Assembly: GCF_021021475.1 (NCBI RefSeq)
Contig: NZ_JAINWL010000002.1
Coordinates: 372,001 to 436,000 of the forward strand
Direction: 5' to 3'
Length of the DNA stretch: 64,000 bases
Origin: Citromicrobium bathyomarinum
GTDB lineage: Bacteria; Pseudomonadota; Alphaproteobacteria; Sphingomonadales; Sphingomonadaceae
How positions within the stretch are numbered: position 1 is the stretch's first letter; every line of letters begins with the position of its first letter. The translations under genes and the position numbers were made by a program. The notes under the pieces were generated by a model. It worked only from the letters and a program-made list of their open reading frames with translations, did no database searches and was not told the DNA's origin. Of the stretch, positions 52,787-61,100 are shown piece after piece.

Positions 52787-54892
52787 ATGCCCCAGAATCT
52801 GACCAGCTTCCTCGAACGCATCGGTGCCAACCGCGATCTCGCGCTGGCGATCGGTGTGATCGGCATCATTGCGATGCTGATCCTGCCGATGCCGGCGTGG
52901 TTGCTCGATTTCGGGCTCGCGATCTCGATCACGCTGTCGGTGATGATCCTGATGACCTCGCTGTTCATCGAGAAGCCGCTGCAGCTTTCGGCATTTCCGA
53001 CGATCCTGCTGATCGCGACCATGCTGCGCCTGGGCCTGAACCTCGCCTCGACCCGGCTGATCCTGGGCCACGGGCACGAAGGGCCACAGGCCGCAGGCGG
53101 CGTGATCGGCGCTTTCGGGCAGTTCCTGATCGGCGGCGAGACCGTCATCGGCCTCACCATCTTCATCATCCTGGTGGTGATCAACTTCGTCGTCATCACC
53201 AAGGGCGCCGGGCGCATCGCGGAGGTCGCCGCGCGTTTCAGCCTCGATGCGATGCCGGGCAAGCAGATGGCGATCGATGCCGATCTTGGCGCGGGGATGA
53301 TCAACGAGGAACAGGCGCGTGCGCGGCGTCAGGAGCTGGAGGCGGAAAGCGGCTTCTTCGGCGCGATGGACGGTGCCTCAAAGTTCGTGAAGGGCGATGC
53401 CATCGCCGGGCTGCTGATCACCGCGATCAACGTGATCGTCGGGCTGATCGTCGGCGTGGCGATCCACGGCGTCGAGTTCGGCGAAGCCTTCACCACTTAT
53501 ACTCTGCTGACGGTCGGTGACGGACTGGTCAGCCAGATTCCGGCGCTGATCGTCTCGACCGCTGCGGGCCTGCTCGTCTCGAAGGGCGGTATGTCGGGCA
53601 AGACCGGCAATGCTCTGGGCGAACAGCTGGGCCGTTATCCCAAGGCGTTCGCCATGGTGTCCGTGCTGATGGGGGCGTTCGCGCTGCTGCCCGGTTTCCC
53701 CTTTCTGCCCTTCGCCTTCGTGTCCGCCGCCAGCGGCTATTACGGCTGGTGGGCCAGCCGCAAGCACAAGCAGCAGCTTGCGCACGAACAGGCCGAGAAG
53801 GCCCAGGCCGAGATCGCTTCGGCCGAATCCGAGGAACCCATCGCCAATACTATCGCAATCGACGCGGTGCGGGTTGAGCTGGGCTATGGCCTGCTGCCGA
53901 TCATCAAGGGTTCGGCCGCCGAGCCGCGGCTCGACGATCAGGTGCGCGCGCTGCGCCGCCAGATGGCGACCGATTACGGCTTCGTGCTGCCTGCGGTGCG
54001 GATCATCGACAATATGGGGCTGGGCGCGCACGACTACCGCGTCTTCATCCGCGAGACCGAGGTCGCGGCGGGCGAGCTGCGGCTCGACAAGCTGATGGTG
54101 ATTAACCCGGGCGGCGGCGATGTCGGCCTGCCGGGCGACCCTGCGCAGGAGCCGGTGTTCGGCCTGCCCGCGCTGTGGATCGATCGCGAACTGCGGGACG
54201 AGGCGGGCCTGCGCAATCTGACCGTGGTCGACTGCGGCACCATCGTCACCACCCATCTGGCGGAACTGGTGAAGGACAATATCGCCGAGCTTCTGTCGTA
54301 CACCGAAACGCAGAAACTGCTGAACGAGGTGCATACCGACGCGGAGAAACTGGTCGCCGACCTGGTGCCTGCGAAGATCAGCATCTCGGGCATCCAGCGG
54401 ATCCTGCAGAACCTGCTCGCCGAAGGGGTCTCCGTGCGCGACATGGCGACCATTCTGGAAGCGATCGCGGAGACCGCTCCGCTGACCCAGAACCTGACCC
54501 AGATCACCGAGCACGTCCGCGCCCGGCTGGCCCGGCAGATTTCCGCCCAGCAGACCCGCGACGGCTACATCCCGATCCTGACCCTGTCGCCCGACTGGGA
54601 CCAGCAATTTGCCGAGAGCATCATCGGGGAAGGGGACGAACGTCACCTCGCGATGGCTCCATCCAACCTGCAGCGCTTCATCACCCAGGTGCGTGAACTC
54701 TACGACACGCTGGCCGCGAGGAACGAGATTCCGTGTCTTCTCGTCAGCCCGTCGATCCGCCCGTTCGTGCGCTCGATCATCGAACGCGTGCGCCCTGCGA
54801 CCGTGGTTCTCTCGCAAAACGAGATCCATCCGCGCACCCGCGTTCGTTCGGTTGGCAGCATCGGTCAACAAAATGTGCTCGAAGCGCCCTGA
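52787..54892 (+). CDS. flhA: Flagellar export-gate protein FlhA
   Basis: 701 residues: eight membrane helices in the first 330 residues (LDFGLAISITLSVMILMTSL, FPTILLIATMLRLGLNLAST), the FHIPEP-type signature region (RIAEVAARFSLDAMPGKQMA, IDADLGAGMINEEQARARR) and the four-part cytoplasmic domain (FVLPAVRIIDNMGLGAHDY, TVVDCGTIVTTHLAELVKDN, ISGIQRILQNLLAEGVSVRD). The ring that docks export chaperones. 26 nt after flbD. Confidence 0.96.
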   Translation: MPQNLTSFLERIGANRDLALAIGVIGIIAMLILPMPAWLLDFGLAISITLSVMILMTSLFIEKPLQLSAFPTILLIATMLRLGLNLASTRLILGHGHEGPQAAGGVIGAFGQFLIGGETVIGLTIFIILVVINFVVITKGAGRIAEVAARFSLDAMPGKQMAIDADLGAGMINEEQARARRQELEAESGFFGAMDGASKFVKGDAIAGLLITAINVIVGLIVGVAIHGVEFGEAFTTYTLLTVGDGLVSQIPALIVSTAAGLLVSKGGMSGKTGNALGEQLGRYPKAFAMVSVLMGAFALLPGFPFLPFAFVSAASGYYGWWASRKHKQQLAHEQAEKAQAEIASAESEEPIANTIAIDAVRVELGYGLLPIIKGSAAEPRLDDQVRALRRQMATDYGFVLPAVRIIDNMGLGAHDYRVFIRETEVAAGELRLDKLMVINPGGGDVGLPGDPAQEPVFGLPALWIDRELRDEAGLRNLTVVDCGTIVTTHLAELVKDNIAELLSYTETQKLLNEVHTDAEKLVADLVPAKISISGIQRILQNLLAEGVSVRDMATILEAIAETAPLTQNLTQITEHVRARLARQISAQQTRDGYIPILTLSPDWDQQFAESIIGEGDERHLAMAPSNLQRFITQVRELYDTLAARNEIPCLLVSPSIRPFVRSIIERVRPATVVLSQNEIHPRTRVRSVGSIGQQNVLEAP

Positions 54893-54906
54893 TCGCTTTC
54901 ATCATC

Positions 54907-54913
54907 CTATAAT
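54907..54913 (+). promoter_or_regulatory. CTATAAT promoter element P9 (fliK-flgD)
   Basis: Perfect CTATAAT 33 nt before the fliK ATG, giving a leader of about 26 nt with AAAGGA near its end. The -35 position reads CGCCCT. Confidence 0.6.
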
Positions 54914-54945
54914 GCTCTTAGGCGCCCCCCGGGCGAAAGGACCGC

Positions 54946-56487
54946 ATGACCCAACTCCTCTCGCTTGTTCCCGGCAACAGCTCCCCTTCTGGATTGTCTG
55001 GGGGCGCCACCCCATTCCCTTCGCAAGGCCCCTCCTTCGCGGCATTGCTGACTGCGCCTTCGTCGCAGCAGGCGACGCAACTGAGCGGGTTTGCAGGCCT
55101 GCGCAATATGCCGGGCATGATCCTCGACGGTAGCCAGCAGCTTGCGCGCCCTGGTGTGATCCCGGGCCAGCTCGCCGCTGCGTCCGGCATGGCGGGCCAG
55201 ACATTGATGCCCGATCCCGCAATGCCGCCGGTGGCGACCCTTGTCGCGGCCGACGTGTCTGCCCAGCCGGTCGATGCGCCGCCCGCCGATAATCCCGGGC
55301 AGAGCGCCATCCAACTCGCCGATCTCCAGCCTTCGCCGGATGGCGAGCGCTTGCCGACGTCGCTGGGCGTCCAGGCCGAGGGGGACAGCCCCGCGATTGC
55401 GCCGGATGAACAGGTGCGCGATGCGGAGCCCGTCTCGCAGCCCAACCCTGCCCGCCCAGATCCGATCTCGCAGCCGATTGCGCAATCGGTTGCGCAACCG
55501 ATTGTGCGGGCAACGCCCGAGCAGGCTCTCGAACAGCCCGCCCCGCCTGTCGGTGAAAACACCGACACCGCGATCGAACAGGTGCCCGTTCACACGGATG
55601 CTGAGCCTGTGCCGGTCGATCAGCCCGAGAGCGATCCCGACGTCGTCCCGAGCGCGGATGATATGCCGGAGACGGCGGATGGGGTCGTTGTGGCGATGCC
55701 CGCAGATGCTGTGGCCGAGGCGGTCCCTGCGTCCCCTGCGCGGCAGCCTTCTGTGGTTTCGGATGAACCCACGGCGGACGATATTGCTCAGGACGACAGC
55801 AACATTCCGGTGTCCGCTCGTGACGCTCGCCAGGCGCCCGATGCCGCTGCGCCCCGCTCCACGGCGGCCCAGGCACCTGAAAACGGTAACACCGGCGATT
55901 TTGCCCAGCTCGTGAAAGAGAATGGCGCAGATGCCGCCGCCCCTGCAAGTGAAGGCGGGGAGGGCACGGCTGACATGCTGGCCCAGACCCGGCTTGATCC
56001 TGCCAAGCCGGCTCTAGACACCGTCAGGCCCGCCGCCTCGGTTCCCGGAACCGTCTCCGCCCGGCCGGGCGAGATCGGGCATCAGCTTGGCGTCGAGATC
56101 GCCCGGCGCAGCCTCGATGGCAAGGATAGCCTGACCATTCGCCTCGATCCTGCGGAAATGGGCGAGATTCATATCCGCCTGCAGTTCGACGACAAGGGCA
56201 CGATGCGGGCGCATGTGACCGCAGAGAGCGCCGCGGCGCTGGATATGCTGCGGCGCGATAGTGGCGATCTGGTCCGTGCGCTGGGCGATGCTGGCGTGCG
56301 TACCGATGGCCAATCCTTCCAGTTCGAGGCGCGCAGCCAGGGCCGCGGCGACCAGCAGGGCCAGCAGAACCGCCCCGAAACTCCTTCCGGTGCGAACACC
56401 GCACAATCCGAAACCGAGGGCGATGACGGCGCGCAGCCAGCCCGCGCGAAGCGCCTCGGTAGCGGAAGCCTAGATCTCTTCGCTTGA
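54946..56487 (+). CDS. fliK: Flagellar hook-length control protein FliK
   Basis: 513 residues. A long low-complexity, Ala/Pro/Asp-rich N-terminal ruler part (about 1-370) and the conserved C-terminal domain IARRSLDGKDSLTIRLDPAE, MGEIHIRLQFDDKGTMRAHV, LDMLRRDSGDLVRALGDAGV. It measures hook length and triggers the FlhB switch. The N-terminal half contains internal repeats such as PIAQSVAQPI. Eleven nt before flgD. Confidence 0.88.
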   Translation: MTQLLSLVPGNSSPSGLSGGATPFPSQGPSFAALLTAPSSQQATQLSGFAGLRNMPGMILDGSQQLARPGVIPGQLAAASGMAGQTLMPDPAMPPVATLVAADVSAQPVDAPPADNPGQSAIQLADLQPSPDGERLPTSLGVQAEGDSPAIAPDEQVRDAEPVSQPNPARPDPISQPIAQSVAQPIVRATPEQALEQPAPPVGENTDTAIEQVPVHTDAEPVPVDQPESDPDVVPSADDMPETADGVVVAMPADAVAEAVPASPARQPSVVSDEPTADDIAQDDSNIPVSARDARQAPDAAAPRSTAAQAPENGNTGDFAQLVKENGADAAAPASEGGEGTADMLAQTRLDPAKPALDTVRPAASVPGTVSARPGEIGHQLGVEIARRSLDGKDSLTIRLDPAEMGEIHIRLQFDDKGTMRAHVTAESAAALDMLRRDSGDLVRALGDAGVRTDGQSFQFEARSQGRGDQQGQQNRPETPSGANTAQSETEGDDGAQPARAKRLGSGSLDLFA

Positions 56488-56497
56488 GGACCAAGAC

Positions 56498-57163
56498 ATG
56501 ACAGTAATTTCCTCGATGACGTCCGGCGTGCAGGGCAATGGCGCCGGCGGTGCGGCGGGAGCCGAACTGAACGCCAATTTCGACATGTTCCTGAAACTGC
56601 TGACCACGCAGATGCAGAACCAGGATCCGCTCGATCCGATGGAAACCTCCGAATATACCCAGCAGTTGACGCAGTATTCGCAGGTCGAGCAGTCGATCCA
56701 GCAGACCGCCGCGCTAAAGGATATTCTCTCTGCGCTTTCGACACAGGATATCGCCCAGTCGGCGAACTTCCTGGGCCAGCGCGCGGAACTCGACAGCAGC
56801 ACCGCCGGCCTCTCTGGGGAAACGCCCGCGCAGTGGGCCTGGTCTGCCGATCGCCCGATCCAGAGCCTGACCGCGACCATTACCGATGCGCGCGGAAGCG
56901 TGGTCGAAACGCGCGAACTCGATCCGGCGACCGCTGGCAATTTTGTGTGGGATGGTTCGCTTACCGGCGGTGGCTCGGCCTCGGAGGGGGCCTATACGCT
57001 CTCGCTCAGTGCGGTCGACGGCGCAGGGCAGGACGTGCCGGTGGGCGTTCGCAGCACCGGTGTCATCGACGAGGTGGTGACGCGCAATGGCGCGGTGTTG
57101 CTGGGCATCAACGGCCTGAACTTCCCTGCCTCCGTGCTGGCTCGGGTGGTCGCAGGTCAATAA
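56498..57163 (+). CDS. flgD: Flagellar hook cap protein FlgD
   Basis: 221 residues: NFDMFLKLLTTQMQNQDPLD, PMETSEYTQQLTQYSQVEQS and a C-terminal FlgD Ig-like/Tudor region (DPATAGNFVWDGSLTGGG, GAYTLSLSAVDGAGQDVP). Scaffold for hook polymerisation; flgE, usually next, is not found here. Last protein gene of the P9 operon. Confidence 0.95.
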   Translation: MTVISSMTSGVQGNGAGGAAGAELNANFDMFLKLLTTQMQNQDPLDPMETSEYTQQLTQYSQVEQSIQQTAALKDILSALSTQDIAQSANFLGQRAELDSSTAGLSGETPAQWAWSADRPIQSLTATITDARGSVVETRELDPATAGNFVWDGSLTGGGSASEGAYTLSLSAVDGAGQDVPVGVRSTGVIDEVVTRNGAVLLGINGLNFPASVLARVVAGQ

Positions 57164-57200
57164 AGATTGTGCGAGCGCGTCCCTGCGCCCGCGCAATCCT

Positions 57201-57207
57201 CTATAAT
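57201..57207 (+). promoter_or_regulatory. CTATAAT promoter element P10 (orphan; leads to a small RNA)
   Basis: Perfect CTATAAT 37 nt after the flgD stop with no plus-strand protein gene behind it. It precedes a structured stretch ending in an intrinsic terminator. The -35 position reads GTCCCT. Confidence 0.6.
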
Positions 57208-57213
57208 GTAACA

Positions 57214-57331
57214 AGGTCGGCAGTTTCCCAGTCTCCCTCTGCCAGGCCTGACTTCCGGGGCACTCTCCACCTCCCTCTTGCGGCGTAGAGATGCGGTTCC
57301 GTCTCTCGCCCGCCCCGGAGGTCAATTTTTT
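57214..57331 (+). ncRNA. Candidate flagellar small RNA with intrinsic terminator
   Basis: About 118 nt from the expected start 7 nt after P10. Stem 1: GGCAG (57219-57223) with CTGCC (57239-57243), loop rich in C and T. Stem 2: TGACTTCCGGGGC (57249-57261) with GCCCCGGAGGTCA (57312-57324), 13 bp with one G-T pair, enclosing AGAGA/TCTCT (57287-57291, 57302-57306). It ends A then TTTTTT (57326-57331), a good terminator. The single-stranded part between the arms includes CTCCACCTCCCTCTTG, an anti-Shine-Dalgarno motif, as known in CcsR/cuckoo-type alphaproteobacterial sRNAs. TCCCTCTTG (57272-57280) can pair with 8 of 9 bases at the flagellin ribosome binding site. No coding potential is apparent. 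Confidence 0.62.
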
Positions 57332-57504
57332 CATTCTTTTGCAGACAATGCCACCGGATTGCCGGGCGATGACCGCGTGCAATTTTGCGCCGCTCGTTCG
57401 CCCGTGCCCGTGGCCGCGCTGACCCTGTGCAAGTCTGAGATCTGGGCCCCGGATCGACCTTGTTCGACAGCAACCTGGGCTGCCCCGCGACAGACGCCTC
57501 GCAG
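57332..57504. other. Non-coding remainder between the sRNA candidate and the next gene
   Basis: The gap between flgD and the next gene is 341 bp. The first part holds P10 and the sRNA candidate. In the remaining 173 bp I see no ribosome binding site, conserved reading frame, dyad with T-run or promoter element. Confidence 0.5.
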
Positions 57505-57918
57505 TCAGTGAAGGTAGGACTGCCGCCTCCGGCCCAGCTCGCGCGCATGCGCGCAGACTATGCACAGCTCGGCGTATACGCGATCCCACAATGCCAGGAC
57601 GATCCTGAGCGGTTCATCAGCATTGAGCTGGTCGATGATCACCGCTGCCTCAGGCTCGGGCTCCAGCTGGAAGCGGGTCGGAAAGGCGCCCCCGATCTCT
57701 TCTTCGGGCATGGTGCCCGGCACGGCAAGGCGGGCCGACATGATGTAGCCGAGCAGGATATCCGCGCCGTAGGCATCGAGCATGACCTGGCCCGACTGCG
57801 GGGCATTGGGTCGATCTATCAGAATCAAGGCCCCACCGGGATGGGGCTCTACGCTGATCCGCACGACTTCCCCGTAGGGATCGGCAATTTCGCGAATGCG
57901 GGGAAAGTTCGTCGCCAA
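57505..57918 (-). CDS. Unrecognised protein downstream of flagellin
   Basis: 137 residues, TTG start with a weak ribosome binding site. Beta-rich first half (PYGEVVRISVEPHPGGALIL, SGQVMLDAYGADILLGYIMS), then FPTRFQLEPEPEAAVIID and a helical end (PLRIVLALWDRVYAELCIVC, AHARELGRRR). No signal peptide or membrane helix. Base usage is like neighbouring genes and the frame is clean, so it is probably real. It starts 80 nt after the flagellin terminator on the same strand. I do not recognise the family; a role in flagellin or filament biology is suggested only by place. Confidence 0.55.
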   Translation of the reverse strand: MATNFPRIREIADPYGEVVRISVEPHPGGALILIDRPNAPQSGQVMLDAYGADILLGYIMSARLAVPGTMPEEEIGGAFPTRFQLEPEPEAAVIIDQLNADEPLRIVLALWDRVYAELCIVCAHARELGRRRQSYLH

Positions 57919-57997
57919 GGGTACTGATACCTGCCTGATGTTCTTGCTGCCGCATTCGGCAGCGTCGGCGGCGCTTCATGCATCGCGCGACGGGAAA

Positions 57998-58027
57998 ACA
58001 AAAGGGGCCGGACTTGCGCCCGGCCCC
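57998..58027 (-). terminator. Intrinsic terminator of the flagellin gene
   Basis: On the minus strand GGGGCCGG (58027-58020) pairs with CCGGCCCC (58011-58004), followed by TTTTGTTTT. It lies 43 nt after the flagellin stop. Confidence 0.85.
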
Positions 58028-58069
58028 AGGTGGCCTTCCCCCCGGAAGGGGAAAGACTTCGTCGACCGA

Positions 58070-58897
58070 TTAACGGAAGAGCGAAGTGATCGTCTGCGGC
58101 GCCTGGTTGGCGATCGACAGAGCCTGGACACCCAGCTGCTGCTTGACCTGCAGGGCCTGCAGCTTGGCCGATTCCTTGGCCAGATCGGCATCGACGAGGT
58201 TGCCGATACCGCTCTCGATCACGTCGGACAGCTTGCTGTTGAACGACAGCTGCCCTTCGATCTTGCGCGAAGCCGAACCCAGAGTGCTCAGCGTCGACGT
58301 CACCGTGGCGGTCACGGTGGCGATTTCGGTCAGTGCAGTATCGGCATCGGCTTTGGTGCCGAGGCCGGTACCAAGGGCGGTGGTGACGTTGGTATCGAAG
58401 GCCTGGTTGGCCACGCCGATCGTGCTCGTCGTATCGAGCGACTGCAGCGCGGAAACCTTGCCGGTCGAGGTCGCGTCATCCTTCAGAACGTTCGTGCCGT
58501 TGAACTCCGACGAAGCGATGATCGTGGTGATCTGCTCCTTCAGAGCCGTGTAGTCGGCGTTGATCGCGGTACGGCTTTCAGCATCCAGGCCGTCATCTGC
58601 CGCCTGAATAGCCTTGGCCTTCATCTGATTGAGGACGTCGGAGATCTGCTCCGCACCCGCAATCGCCACATCGACGGTGCTCTTACCCCGGTTGAGCGAG
58701 GAATTGACCGCCGAGAGACCACCCACGTCGCCGCGGAGAGACTGTGCAATCGTGAACGATGCCGAATCGTCCTTGGTCGATGCGACGTTCAGGCCGGTGT
58801 TGATACGGCTCTGAACCTGCGACAGACCCTTGTTGGTCTGGTTCAGGCTCTGCAGAGCAGCCATCGCGCCGGTGTTGGTATTGACTGAGAACGCCAT
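58070..58897 (-). CDS. fliC: Flagellin
   Basis: 275 residues, short as in Caulobacter flagellins: N-terminal D0/D1 (FSVNTNTGAMAALQSLNQTN, VQSRINTGLNVASTKDDSAS), a small Thr/Ala-rich variable core and C-terminal D1/D0 (LVDADLAKESAKLQALQVKQ, LGVQALSIANQAPQTITSLF). Only flagellin gene in the window. AAGGAA precedes the ATG. Its upstream region lacks a perfect CTATAAT; CAGAAT near 58995 on the minus strand and GGCAAAAATATCTGCC near 59030-59045 are the nearest relatives, so its control may differ. FlaF and the sRNA candidate are likely regulators. Confidence 0.95.
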   Translation of the reverse strand: MAFSVNTNTGAMAALQSLNQTNKGLSQVQSRINTGLNVASTKDDSASFTIAQSLRGDVGGLSAVNSSLNRGKSTVDVAIAGAEQISDVLNQMKAKAIQAADDGLDAESRTAINADYTALKEQITTIIASSEFNGTNVLKDDATSTGKVSALQSLDTTSTIGVANQAFDTNVTTALGTGLGTKADADTALTEIATVTATVTSTLSTLGSASRKIEGQLSFNSKLSDVIESGIGNLVDADLAKESAKLQALQVKQQLGVQALSIANQAPQTITSLFR

Positions 58898-59060
58898 TTT
58901 TCATTTCCTTCTTGGATAGGCGAACCGCATTCTGCGGTCCCGGCCAGAAGCGCTGGCCACGACGCACAACAAAAACTGCGGTGCGCCTTTCATTCTGGAA
59001 AGAAATGGCACCCCATCCCAAGCGGATCGGCAGATATTTTTGCCGTTCCGCGCCGCCGTC

Positions 59061-59822
59061 TCAGAACGGGAACAGCGCTTCGTAGATCTGCTGGCCCCAG
59101 CGCGCCTGCTGCACATCGGTTAGCTGGCCGCGTCCGCCATAGCTGATCCGCGCCTCGGCGATCTTGCCGTGCTGGATGGTGTTGCCCTTGGCGATGTCCT
59201 GCGGTCGCACGATGCCGGTCACGATCAGTTCGCGCAGCTCGAAATTGACGCGCATCTCCTGCCGTCCGCGGATCACCAGATTGCCGTTGGGCAGCACGTC
59301 GGTGACGATCGCCGCCATCGTCATGTTGATCGTCTCGCTGCGGGTGGTGCTCCCCTGACCGCCCGAGGCCGAGTTCGACGTTGCATCGACCGCCTGTGCA
59401 GGATTGCCGGGGAGGAGGTCCTGCAGGCCGAGCAGGGCGCCGATACCCATGCTTTCCGAGCCACTGCGAGAGCGCGAGGTCGAATTGCCGAACTCGGCCT
59501 TGTCGGCGATGTTGATCTCGACCGTCAGGATGTCGCCCACGCGCGAGGCGCGCTGATCCTGAAACAGTTCGCCAGCGCCGGCGCGAAACAGCGAGGCGTT
59601 GGGGGCCTGAGCTTGGGCAGGAGCTTGCGGAGCGGGCGCGGTCGGCACGGTTCCACGCATCCGGACTGGGTCCGTGCTTGCGATGGACGGCTCGTAAGCA
59701 GGGGTGGTGTAGGCCTCTACCGGCGACATGGACGGTGCCTTGCCGACATTCTTGAGGCGATCGATCGTGCCGCAACCCGACAGCAGCGACGCCGTAACGG
59801 CGATCGTAACGACTTTTTTCAT
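59061..59822 (-). CDS. flgH: Flagellar L-ring lipoprotein FlgH
   Basis: 253 residues from the ATG with AAGGAA upstream. Lipoprotein signal KKVVTIAVTASLLSGC (lipobox LLSGC), then SLFRAGAGELFQDQRASRVG, DILTVEINIADKAEFGNSTS and the C-terminal LIVTGIVRPQDIAKGNTIQH, GKIAEARISYGGRGQL. Outer-membrane L-ring. Last gene of flgF-flgG-flgA-flgH. Confidence 0.95.
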   Translation of the reverse strand: MKKVVTIAVTASLLSGCGTIDRLKNVGKAPSMSPVEAYTTPAYEPSIASTDPVRMRGTVPTAPAPQAPAQAQAPNASLFRAGAGELFQDQRASRVGDILTVEINIADKAEFGNSTSRSRSGSESMGIGALLGLQDLLPGNPAQAVDATSNSASGGQGSTTRSETINMTMAAIVTDVLPNGNLVIRGRQEMRVNFELRELIVTGIVRPQDIAKGNTIQHGKIAEARISYGGRGQLTDVQQARWGQQIYEALFPF

Positions 59823-59844
59823 CTGAGTTTCCTTGGCTTGTGGC

Positions 59845-60315
59845 TCAGGGGGCGAGCACACGAACGGTGCCGGCGCCTTCGACGACACCCTGAAGCGTCT
59901 GGTTGGTGGCTTCGCTGAAGACGCGCACCTGCTCGCCCAGCGCGGCATCGGCCAGCGCGCGGCCCATGGCGGTGATCGTCAACGCGCCTTCGCGCACGCT
60001 GATCTTGACCGTCTCGCCCCGCTTGACGAGCCGCGGTTCGGCGAGGTCGCTCGCGCGCACCGGCATTCCCGCGCGCAGCGTGCGCCGCGCCTCCATGCCT
60101 GCCGCCTGCTGCGCGGCGAGGCTTCCCCGCGCCTGCGCGGCGGTGACTTCCTCGGGCGCGAAGTCGCGCTCCGACAGCAGGTCGCCGCGCTGGATCGGGC
60201 GGGTGAGAACGTCTGCCACCACGCCATCGCCCGTGCTCTGTGCATGGAGCGCGCCGCATGGCAGCAGCGCCAGCCCGGCGAGCAGCGGGGCGGTGAGAAA
60301 GAAACGCCGGGCCAT
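59845..60315 (-). CDS. flgA: P-ring assembly chaperone FlgA
   Basis: 156 residues: signal peptide ending LHA-QST, SAF-like domain (PIQRGDLLSERDFAPEEVTA, LRAGMPVRASDLAEPRLVKR, GETVKISVREGALTITAMG, ATNQTLQGVVEGAGTVRV). Periplasmic chaperone for FlgI. Start overlaps the flgG stop by one base. Confidence 0.93.
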   Translation of the reverse strand: MARRFFLTAPLLAGLALLPCGALHAQSTGDGVVADVLTRPIQRGDLLSERDFAPEEVTAAQARGSLAAQQAAGMEARRTLRAGMPVRASDLAEPRLVKRGETVKISVREGALTITAMGRALADAALGEQVRVFSEATNQTLQGVVEGAGTVRVLAP

Positions 60316-61100
60316 CAGCGCAGCTGGCTCGTCGTGCCGAGCATTTCGTCGGCGGTCTTCACCACCCGGCTGTTCATCTCATAGGCGCGCTGTGCGGTGA
60401 TGAGTGCGGTGATTTCCGCGACCGGATTGACGTTGGAGGCTTCGACGAAACCCTGCGCCACGCTGCCGAAGCCGGGCTCGCCCGGCGCGGCGATGGTCGG
60501 CTCGCCCGAGGCTGCGGTGGCGAGGAACAGGTTGTCGCCCTTGGCTTCCAGCCCGGCTTCGTTGACGAAGGTGGCGAGTTCGATCTGGCCGACGGTCTGC
60601 ATCTCGGTCTCGCCGGCGATCTTGATCTGGACCTCGCCCGTGCGCGACACCGCGACATCGACCGCGCCCTGGGGAATGGTGATTCCCGGCTCCACGACGA
60701 GGCCCTGCGAGGTGACCAGCTCGCCCTGGTCGGACAGCTGGAAGGTGCCGTCGCGGGTATAGCCGATCTCGCCGGTCGGCATCTGGACCTGGAAATAGCC
60801 AAGGCCCTGAATCGCCAGGTCGAAGCGGTTGTCGGTCTGGACCAGCGCGCCCTGTTCGGCGATGCGATAGACGCCGCCGGTGCGCACGCCTGCGCCAATC
60901 TGGATGCCCGTGGGTGCCCGCGCCTCGGGTCCGGCGGAAGAGGCACCGGGGCGCGAGACCTGCTGATAGAGCAGATCCTGGAACTGGGCGCGCTGACGCT
61001 TGAACCCGGTGGTGTTCATATTGGCGATGTTGTTGGAGATGACGTCGACATTGGTCTGCTGAGCAAGCATGCCGGTGCCGGCGATCGAGAGCGAACGCAT
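60315..61100 (-). CDS. flgG: Flagellar distal rod protein FlgG
   Basis: 261 residues: RSLSIAGTGMLAQQTNVDVI, SNNIANMNTTGFKRQRAQF, FDLAIQGLGYFQVQMPTGEI, GYTRDGTFQLSDQGELVTSQ and C-terminal VEASNVNPVAEITALITAQR, AYEMNSRVVKTADEM. AAGGA before ATG. Between flgF and flgA. Confidence 0.96.
   Translation of the reverse strand: MRSLSIAGTGMLAQQTNVDVISNNIANMNTTGFKRQRAQFQDLLYQQVSRPGASSAGPEARAPTGIQIGAGVRTGGVYRIAEQGALVQTDNRFDLAIQGLGYFQVQMPTGEIGYTRDGTFQLSDQGELVTSQGLVVEPGITIPQGAVDVAVSRTGEVQIKIAGETEMQTVGQIELATFVNEAGLEAKGDNLFLATAASGEPTIAAPGEPGFGSVAQGFVEASNVNPVAEITALITAQRAYEMNSRVVKTADEMLGTTSQLR

Follow-up and report, generated by a model that had tools for sequence, protein, structure and literature searches.

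A conserved structured RNA gene behind flgD in sphingomonads, a candidate small RNA of the flagellar regulon

An RNA gene and its promoter box

A CTATAAT box lies behind flgD in the flagellar cluster of this genome, and on the plus strand no gene is present directly 3' of it, as an earlier note on this DNA had observed. What, then, does this box serve? The 129 nt after the box are predicted to fold at -53.2 kcal/mol with a z-score of -4.75, which none of 200 shuffles equalled, and the folded part by itself (57208-57323) reaches a z-score of -4.08. The fold contains the two stems and the unpaired, exposed C/U-rich stretches that had been described from the letters alone (Table 1). A 5' end of the putative small RNA at 57213 would follow from the spacing to the box, and a 3' end at 57331 from the T6 tract. 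The description of its end as a textbook terminator holds as far as the T6 is concerned but is too strong, because the 12-pair outer stem encloses a bulge and an inner hairpin, the bases AA stand between this stem and the T6, and a terminator scan with a loop limit of 8 did not include hairpin 2 and the T6 among its calls.

Table 1 Coordinates of the features at the RNA locus, in positions of the window.
Feature	Position	Strand	Remarks
flgD	56498-57163	+	upstream neighbour; Pfam FlgD, 1.6e-18
A/T-rich upstream element	57161-57165	+	-40 to -36 from the C of CTATAAT
CTATAAT promoter box	57201-57207	+	37 bases 3' of flgD
Proposed small RNA	57213-57331	+	~118 nt; predicted from sequence
Hairpin 1	57214-57249	+	fold and genus alignment
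Hairpin 1 loop	57224-57238	+	pyrimidine-rich; AGTCTC core conserved
Hairpin 2	57250-57323	+	fold and genus alignment
Hairpin 2 outer stem	57250-57261 with 57312-57323	+	12 pairs
Hairpin 2 C-rich bulge	57262-57279	+	18 nt; enclosed by outer stem
Hairpin 2 inner hairpin	57280-57311	+	enclosed by outer stem
T6, possible terminator tail	57326-57331	+	species-specific within the genus
P0003	57505-57918	-	conserved unnamed 137-aa gene, convergent, between RNA and fliC
Flagellin gene	58070-58897	-	second gene past the RNA; Pfam Flagellin_N, 7.1e-27, and Flagellin_C
CTATAAT sites of the window	14876, 21115, 23247, 27096, 27897, 47524, 49391, 54907, 57201, 61954	+	

A search of the own genome for a second copy returned a single match, the locus itself. 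Rfam 15, searched over 54000-61000 with E up to 5, gave two weak matches, neither at the RNA, and 17 other loci searched at the gathering cut-offs gave none. A small-protein gene was considered and rejected, as a conserved start codon was not seen by eye in the aligned RNAs. Judged from its sequence, the assignment of 57201-57331 as a conserved, structured RNA gene appears well supported.

To which promoter class does the box belong? In the window (i.e., the whole 64-kb stretch of DNA analysed), CTATAAT occurs ten times, always on the plus strand, against a shuffled mean of 0.51; none of 100 shuffles reached ten. Two chemoreceptor genes, motA, fliG, fliF, fliK and fliL lie 3' of these boxes, and the remaining ones precede a gene for a response regulator, one for a 238-aa protein of no family, and the RNA. 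Genome-wide the motif shows no excess (47 sites vs 57 of the reversed motif as control); 73 sphingomonad flgD loci together contain 121 copies, where 3.6 would be expected. At -40 to -36, an offset picked after the profile was seen, cluster sites (n=32, from four genomes) have an A/T fraction of 0.80 vs 0.44 at other sites of the own genome (n=20, two of them within the cluster); for the own 10 cluster sites against 18 outside, the A/T difference has a p of 1.5e-4 over eight positions. The RNA's own box carries this element, and thereby has both parts in common with the five named fli and mot genes and the two chemoreceptor genes, which bears out the earlier claim of a flagellar-type promoter. 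We consider it well supported that CTATAAT marks the flagellar promoter class of this cluster, as far as sequence can tell.

The flagellar and chemotaxis motif can be described as bipartite, with an A/T-rich element, ~30 bases and CTATAAT; a -35 box was not seen. A scan of 54800-60400 for sigma-70 promoters with a -35 box found none. The sigma-28 consensus promoter reads TAAA, 15 bases, GCCGATAA; compared with it by eye, the box of the RNA is CTATAAT.

Conservation in the genus and behind flgD of other sphingomonads

Is the RNA kept in relatives? BLASTN detected copies in four of eight other genomes of the genus, and a model (R1) detected a further copy in G207, a genome of the same species. 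Among ten genomes of the genus, the RNA is present in all six that have the same FlgD and in none of the four that lack it. Sequence, two-hairpin shape, CTATAAT and the place behind flgD all recur in these six genomes, and the parts kept are the box, both hairpins, the AGTCTC loop core and the C-rich bulge. The box is identical throughout the six and reads CTATAAG in G176. Compared pairwise among the six genomes, the RNA plus box is more similar than the remaining intergenic sequence in all 15 pairs, with values from 1.00 vs 0.97 (same species) down to 0.67 vs 0.22. Furthermore, the order flgD > RNA > P0003 < fliC was found in each of the eight genomes examined, including two from other genera (G176 and G202). 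One genome without the main FlgD, G006, has a weak FlgD-like match in a frame of 136 aa (E 6.9e-6). Some genomes of the genus have a second frame, of ~135 aa and distantly FlgD-like, at G001:C2:743420, G005:C1:624669, G008:C1:1045079 and G006:C27:26379. Elsewhere, R1 matched G205 (E 0.018) and contig C1 of G145 (E 0.057), a different contig from that of the G145 flgD.

Covariation among five sequences of the genus scored 0.206 against 0.149 in shuffles (4 of 500 as high), the outer stem being nearly invariant and hence uninformative. The T-tract is T6 here and T8 in G207, and is found in none of the four other aligned congeners. The earlier note had named loss of the stems and terminator in close relatives as grounds for dropping the RNA: the stems are kept, while the T-tailed terminator is not kept within the genus.

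A genome scan yielded 303 matched stretches, 234 of them FlgD relatives, from which the best 80 loci were kept; the sample is therefore biased to FlgD similarity. A related RNA was called in 39 of these best 80 loci, mostly from Sphingomonas, as the union of a rule, a second model (R2) and R1 at L071, L072 and L074. By rule and model it is absent from the other 41, which we count against the proposal. The rule asks for a TATA-like box, a hairpin of at least 11 pairs and a C-rich loop at most 450 nt behind flgD. It selected 31 of 80 loci, with controls of 1/80 on the reverse strand, 0/80 inside flgD and 7/400 in shuffles, and is a relaxed version written after the outcome of a stricter hairpin rule had been seen (19/80 loci; 0/80 reverse, 3/800 shuffles). 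R2 matched 26 of 80 loci at E < 1e-6, all behind flgD and on the same strand, and 20 of the 26 are the sequences from which it was built. These 20 rows were chosen by a pattern demanding a RATCCCCTC-like loop, so that the constancy of the loop among them is partly by construction; L104, L105 and L110, matched by R2 and missed by the pattern owing to their box, have such a loop too.

The stems played no part in this selection. In the Sphingomonas form, 89.1% of the stem cells pair (slid controls 37.6-48.7%), and 60 cells are changed on both sides compared to 21.1 in shuffles (0 of 500 as high); the counts of covarying pairs and of pair types are not above shuffles (121 and 404 of 500). The stems thus co-vary, by the both-side changes, around a kept RATCCCCTC loop. 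Thirteen members fold with z-scores of -3.3 to -10.1, and for each of them none of 200 shuffles was as good. Three hairpins are present in many Sphingomonas forms, where the loops after the first are often, not always, C-rich; several forms end in a T-tailed hairpin.

Neither R1 nor R2 finds the members of the other at E < 0.01, and the R1 scores fall stepwise over G176, G202, L073 and L126. We join the genus form and the Sphingomonas form into one family on account of their place, box, shape and neighbour gene. Across 397 genomes of the family, with 8 of thousands of candidates scored per genome and low recall, R2 gave six weak matches (E 0.0008-0.0042), which we take as chance; that no syntenic member appeared in this low-recall scan is likewise counted against. 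By eye, 14 of 20 flgD loci viewed have no such RNA.

The neighbour gene P0003 has relatives of 38-86% identity, all convergent, in 43 of the best 80 flgD loci. The RNA is called in 35 of these 43 loci and in 4 of the 37 others (Fisher p 1e-10). This association may be the mark of one orthologous locus or may reflect a partnership. Sequence searches with P0003 against Pfam, NCBIfam and PDB gave nothing over cut-off; the predicted structure of the protein is confident (pLDDT 89.6), and a sub-threshold match to RRM_occluded reaches 18.4 bits (cut-off 30; E 0.002). Eight loci have P0003 and no RNA by rule or model. In six of them (L073, L076, L083, L088, L097 and L129) a TATA-type box and C-rich stretches can be seen by eye, and their predicted folds over 90 nt do not beat those of shuffles (z -0.2 to -1.7); in L078 and L108 neither box nor C-rich stretch was seen by eye.

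Proposed function, targets and rival explanations

Similar RNA genes at the same spot in many relatives suggest that the RNA is probably an overlooked regulator of swimming. We favour, with moderate confidence, a small RNA that belongs to the flagellar regulon and acts in trans by base pairing. It would be made from the CTATAAT flagellar promoter while the flagellar and chemotaxis genes are on, and would fold into two stable hairpins here and into three in many Sphingomonas forms. C-rich unpaired loops would thereby be exposed, which resemble the anti-Shine-Dalgarno end of 16S rRNA and whose most likely partners would be G-rich ribosome-binding regions in selected mRNAs; translation of these mRNAs would thus be tuned during flagellum building. 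What sequence supplies to this proposal is an RNA that is structured and conserved, the class of its promoter, its synteny and its absence where the same FlgD is absent. From these we infer a discrete transcript, its pairing with mRNAs, which mRNAs these would be and the sign of the effect. The loop GATCCCCTC is one base off GATCACCTC of the 16S 3' end, as confirmed in the source genome, whose RNA has a different loop. The same 16S 12-mer was found in the three Sphingomonas genomes searched, with four places that are not 16S by Rfam.

Which mRNA might be met? The earlier proposal had the RNA regulating flagellin translation in an antisense fashion and sharing or taking over the role of FlbT, which had not been seen beside flaF. 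The coordinates given for the pairing are right: TCCCTCTTG stands at 57272-57280 in the RNA and TCCTTCTTG at 58906-58914, and in the source species 8 of 9 bases match between the RNA segment and the antisense of the flagellin ribosome site. As evidence this match is weak, since by our estimate (118 x ~25 positions) ~0.3 one-mismatch matches are expected by chance and TCCCTCTTG is confined to the source species, missing from four congeners with an unchanged flagellin ribosome site; that site, AGAAGGAAA, is kept in eight aligned genomes. In a pairing scan of 56 ORFs across the cluster, for which a simple rule fixed the start codons and each ORF was represented by 1 to 7 genomes, flagellin ranked 20th, the fliR ORF first and flhB ninth, none of them convincingly. 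This 56-gene scan was not discriminating and gave no convincing target. The pattern GAGGGGAT..ATG, searched in ten genomes, has many scattered and unspecific sites, and its control, the reversed pattern, is of a different composition.

FlbT itself is encoded ~8 kb past the end of the window at G000:C6:444015-444386 (E 4e-37; Pfam 1.2e-37), with a CTATAAT of its own at 443978, just upstream, and was found in four of four tested genomes with the RNA and none of four without. A replacement of FlbT was therefore rejected; so was a flagellin-specific pairing, which is not conserved. The flagellin leader is strongly conserved and flagellin is only the second gene on, but with FlbT present in the genome, a match that is not conserved and flagellin ranking as it does, we regard the earlier proposal as very improbable.

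The flagellin leader (58898-59060, minus strand) is strongly conserved over eight genomes and holds a GGCCAGCG..TGGCC repeat and a GCAGAATGC stretch ahead of the ribosome site; from sequence, it is a plausible control site for FlbT or an RNA. Behind the flagellin gene, a hairpin at 57990-58058 (minus strand) has sub-threshold Rfam matches to mmgR/suhB (26.9 bits, cut-off 41) and BjrC68 (17.3 bits, cut-off 39). It is perhaps only the flagellin terminator, and the terminator scan includes it.

Loops that stay C-rich while the stems drift would suit either pairing with G-rich ribosome sites or binding by a protein; we favour pairing, for which GsrN of Caulobacter offers a precedent (PMC5869019). 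If the loops instead titrated or recruited a regulator, possibly P0003, with no mRNA pairing, the persistence of the loops while the stems drift, the association with P0003 and its sub-threshold RRM_occluded match would all be accommodated. This association, however, may merely mark one orthologous flagellar locus, and P0003 is without a family match over cut-off, so that we hold a purely protein-binding RNA to be unlikely. A bolder combination would see a riboregulatory unit dedicated to the sphingomonad (Sphingomonadaceae) flagellum, in which a 16S-tail-like small RNA, with P0003 as its RNA partner, acts on the translation of late flagellar mRNAs alongside FlbT; the stems would then drift freely with the 16S-like loop kept. 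We mention it as a decidedly speculative idea.

Alternatively, the locus might regulate nothing and form the 3' end region or termination zone that separates flgD from the convergent genes on the fliC side; its hairpins would then only halt transcription or shield the flgD mRNA. Its position after flgD and opposite convergent genes would suit such a role, as would the T-tailed end hairpin of several Sphingomonas forms and the plain terminator-like hairpin that stands at this place in several flgD loci without the RNA. Such a zone does not account for a conserved promoter box of its own nor for a first hairpin whose loop is kept, and the T-tract is missing in four congeners; a conserved stem-loop with a directly following T-tract was found neither across the genus nor by the terminator scan. 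We therefore judge this explanation to be quite unlikely and retain the base-pairing small RNA as the preferred reading.

Relation to known small RNAs

Sphingomonads form a large group with environmental, plant-associated and pollutant-degrading members. If the RNA is transcribed, it would offer a direct handle on the post-transcriptional control of their motility, and a 16S-tail-like loop combined with stem turnover would make a natural test case for the target specificity of anti-Shine-Dalgarno small RNAs. Searches of the open-licence literature showed no flagella-tuning small RNA for sphingomonads, and the parts of two Zymomonas papers on small RNAs and promoters that were consulted (PMC7064620, PMC7566282) hold nothing matching the RNA.

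As described in the portion of PMC11187230 used here, FlmE (CJnc230) of Campylobacter jejuni is a small RNA behind flgE with its own RpoD promoter, which RNases also release from the flgE mRNA and which targets flgM and Cj1387c. In both flagellar loci the small RNA gene, a putative one here, lies downstream of a hook gene; the likeness is one of description, Campylobacter being unrelated and FlmE lying behind flgE with known targets. The E. coli small RNAs UhpU, MotR, FliX and FlgO depend on sigma-28 and tune flagella, according to the sections of PMC10578931 that we drew on. Control by a flagellar promoter is common to them and the RNA described here, but on the same partial source they are UTR-derived, whereas our RNA follows a CTATAAT-type promoter. 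GsrN of Caulobacter pairs through a conserved C-rich loop with a G-rich mRNA leader, belongs to the general stress response and lies near ecfG genes; its BLASTN matches are limited to Caulobacteraceae, and Erythrobacter is given as without a gsrN-like gene, as stated in the excerpted text of PMC5869019. The RNA shares the C-rich loop with GsrN but differs in its locus, a flagellar cluster not near ecfG, nepR or phyR, and in its box, the CTATAAT of the cluster and not a sigma-EcfG promoter. The suhB/mmgR family (RF00519) has a C-rich anti-SD motif and, like the RNA, is an alphaproteobacterial small RNA, but the RNA has no match to RF00519, the sub-threshold match sitting at the flagellin 3' end. 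Taken together, this kind of small RNA is already known, and the RNA family appears to be new.
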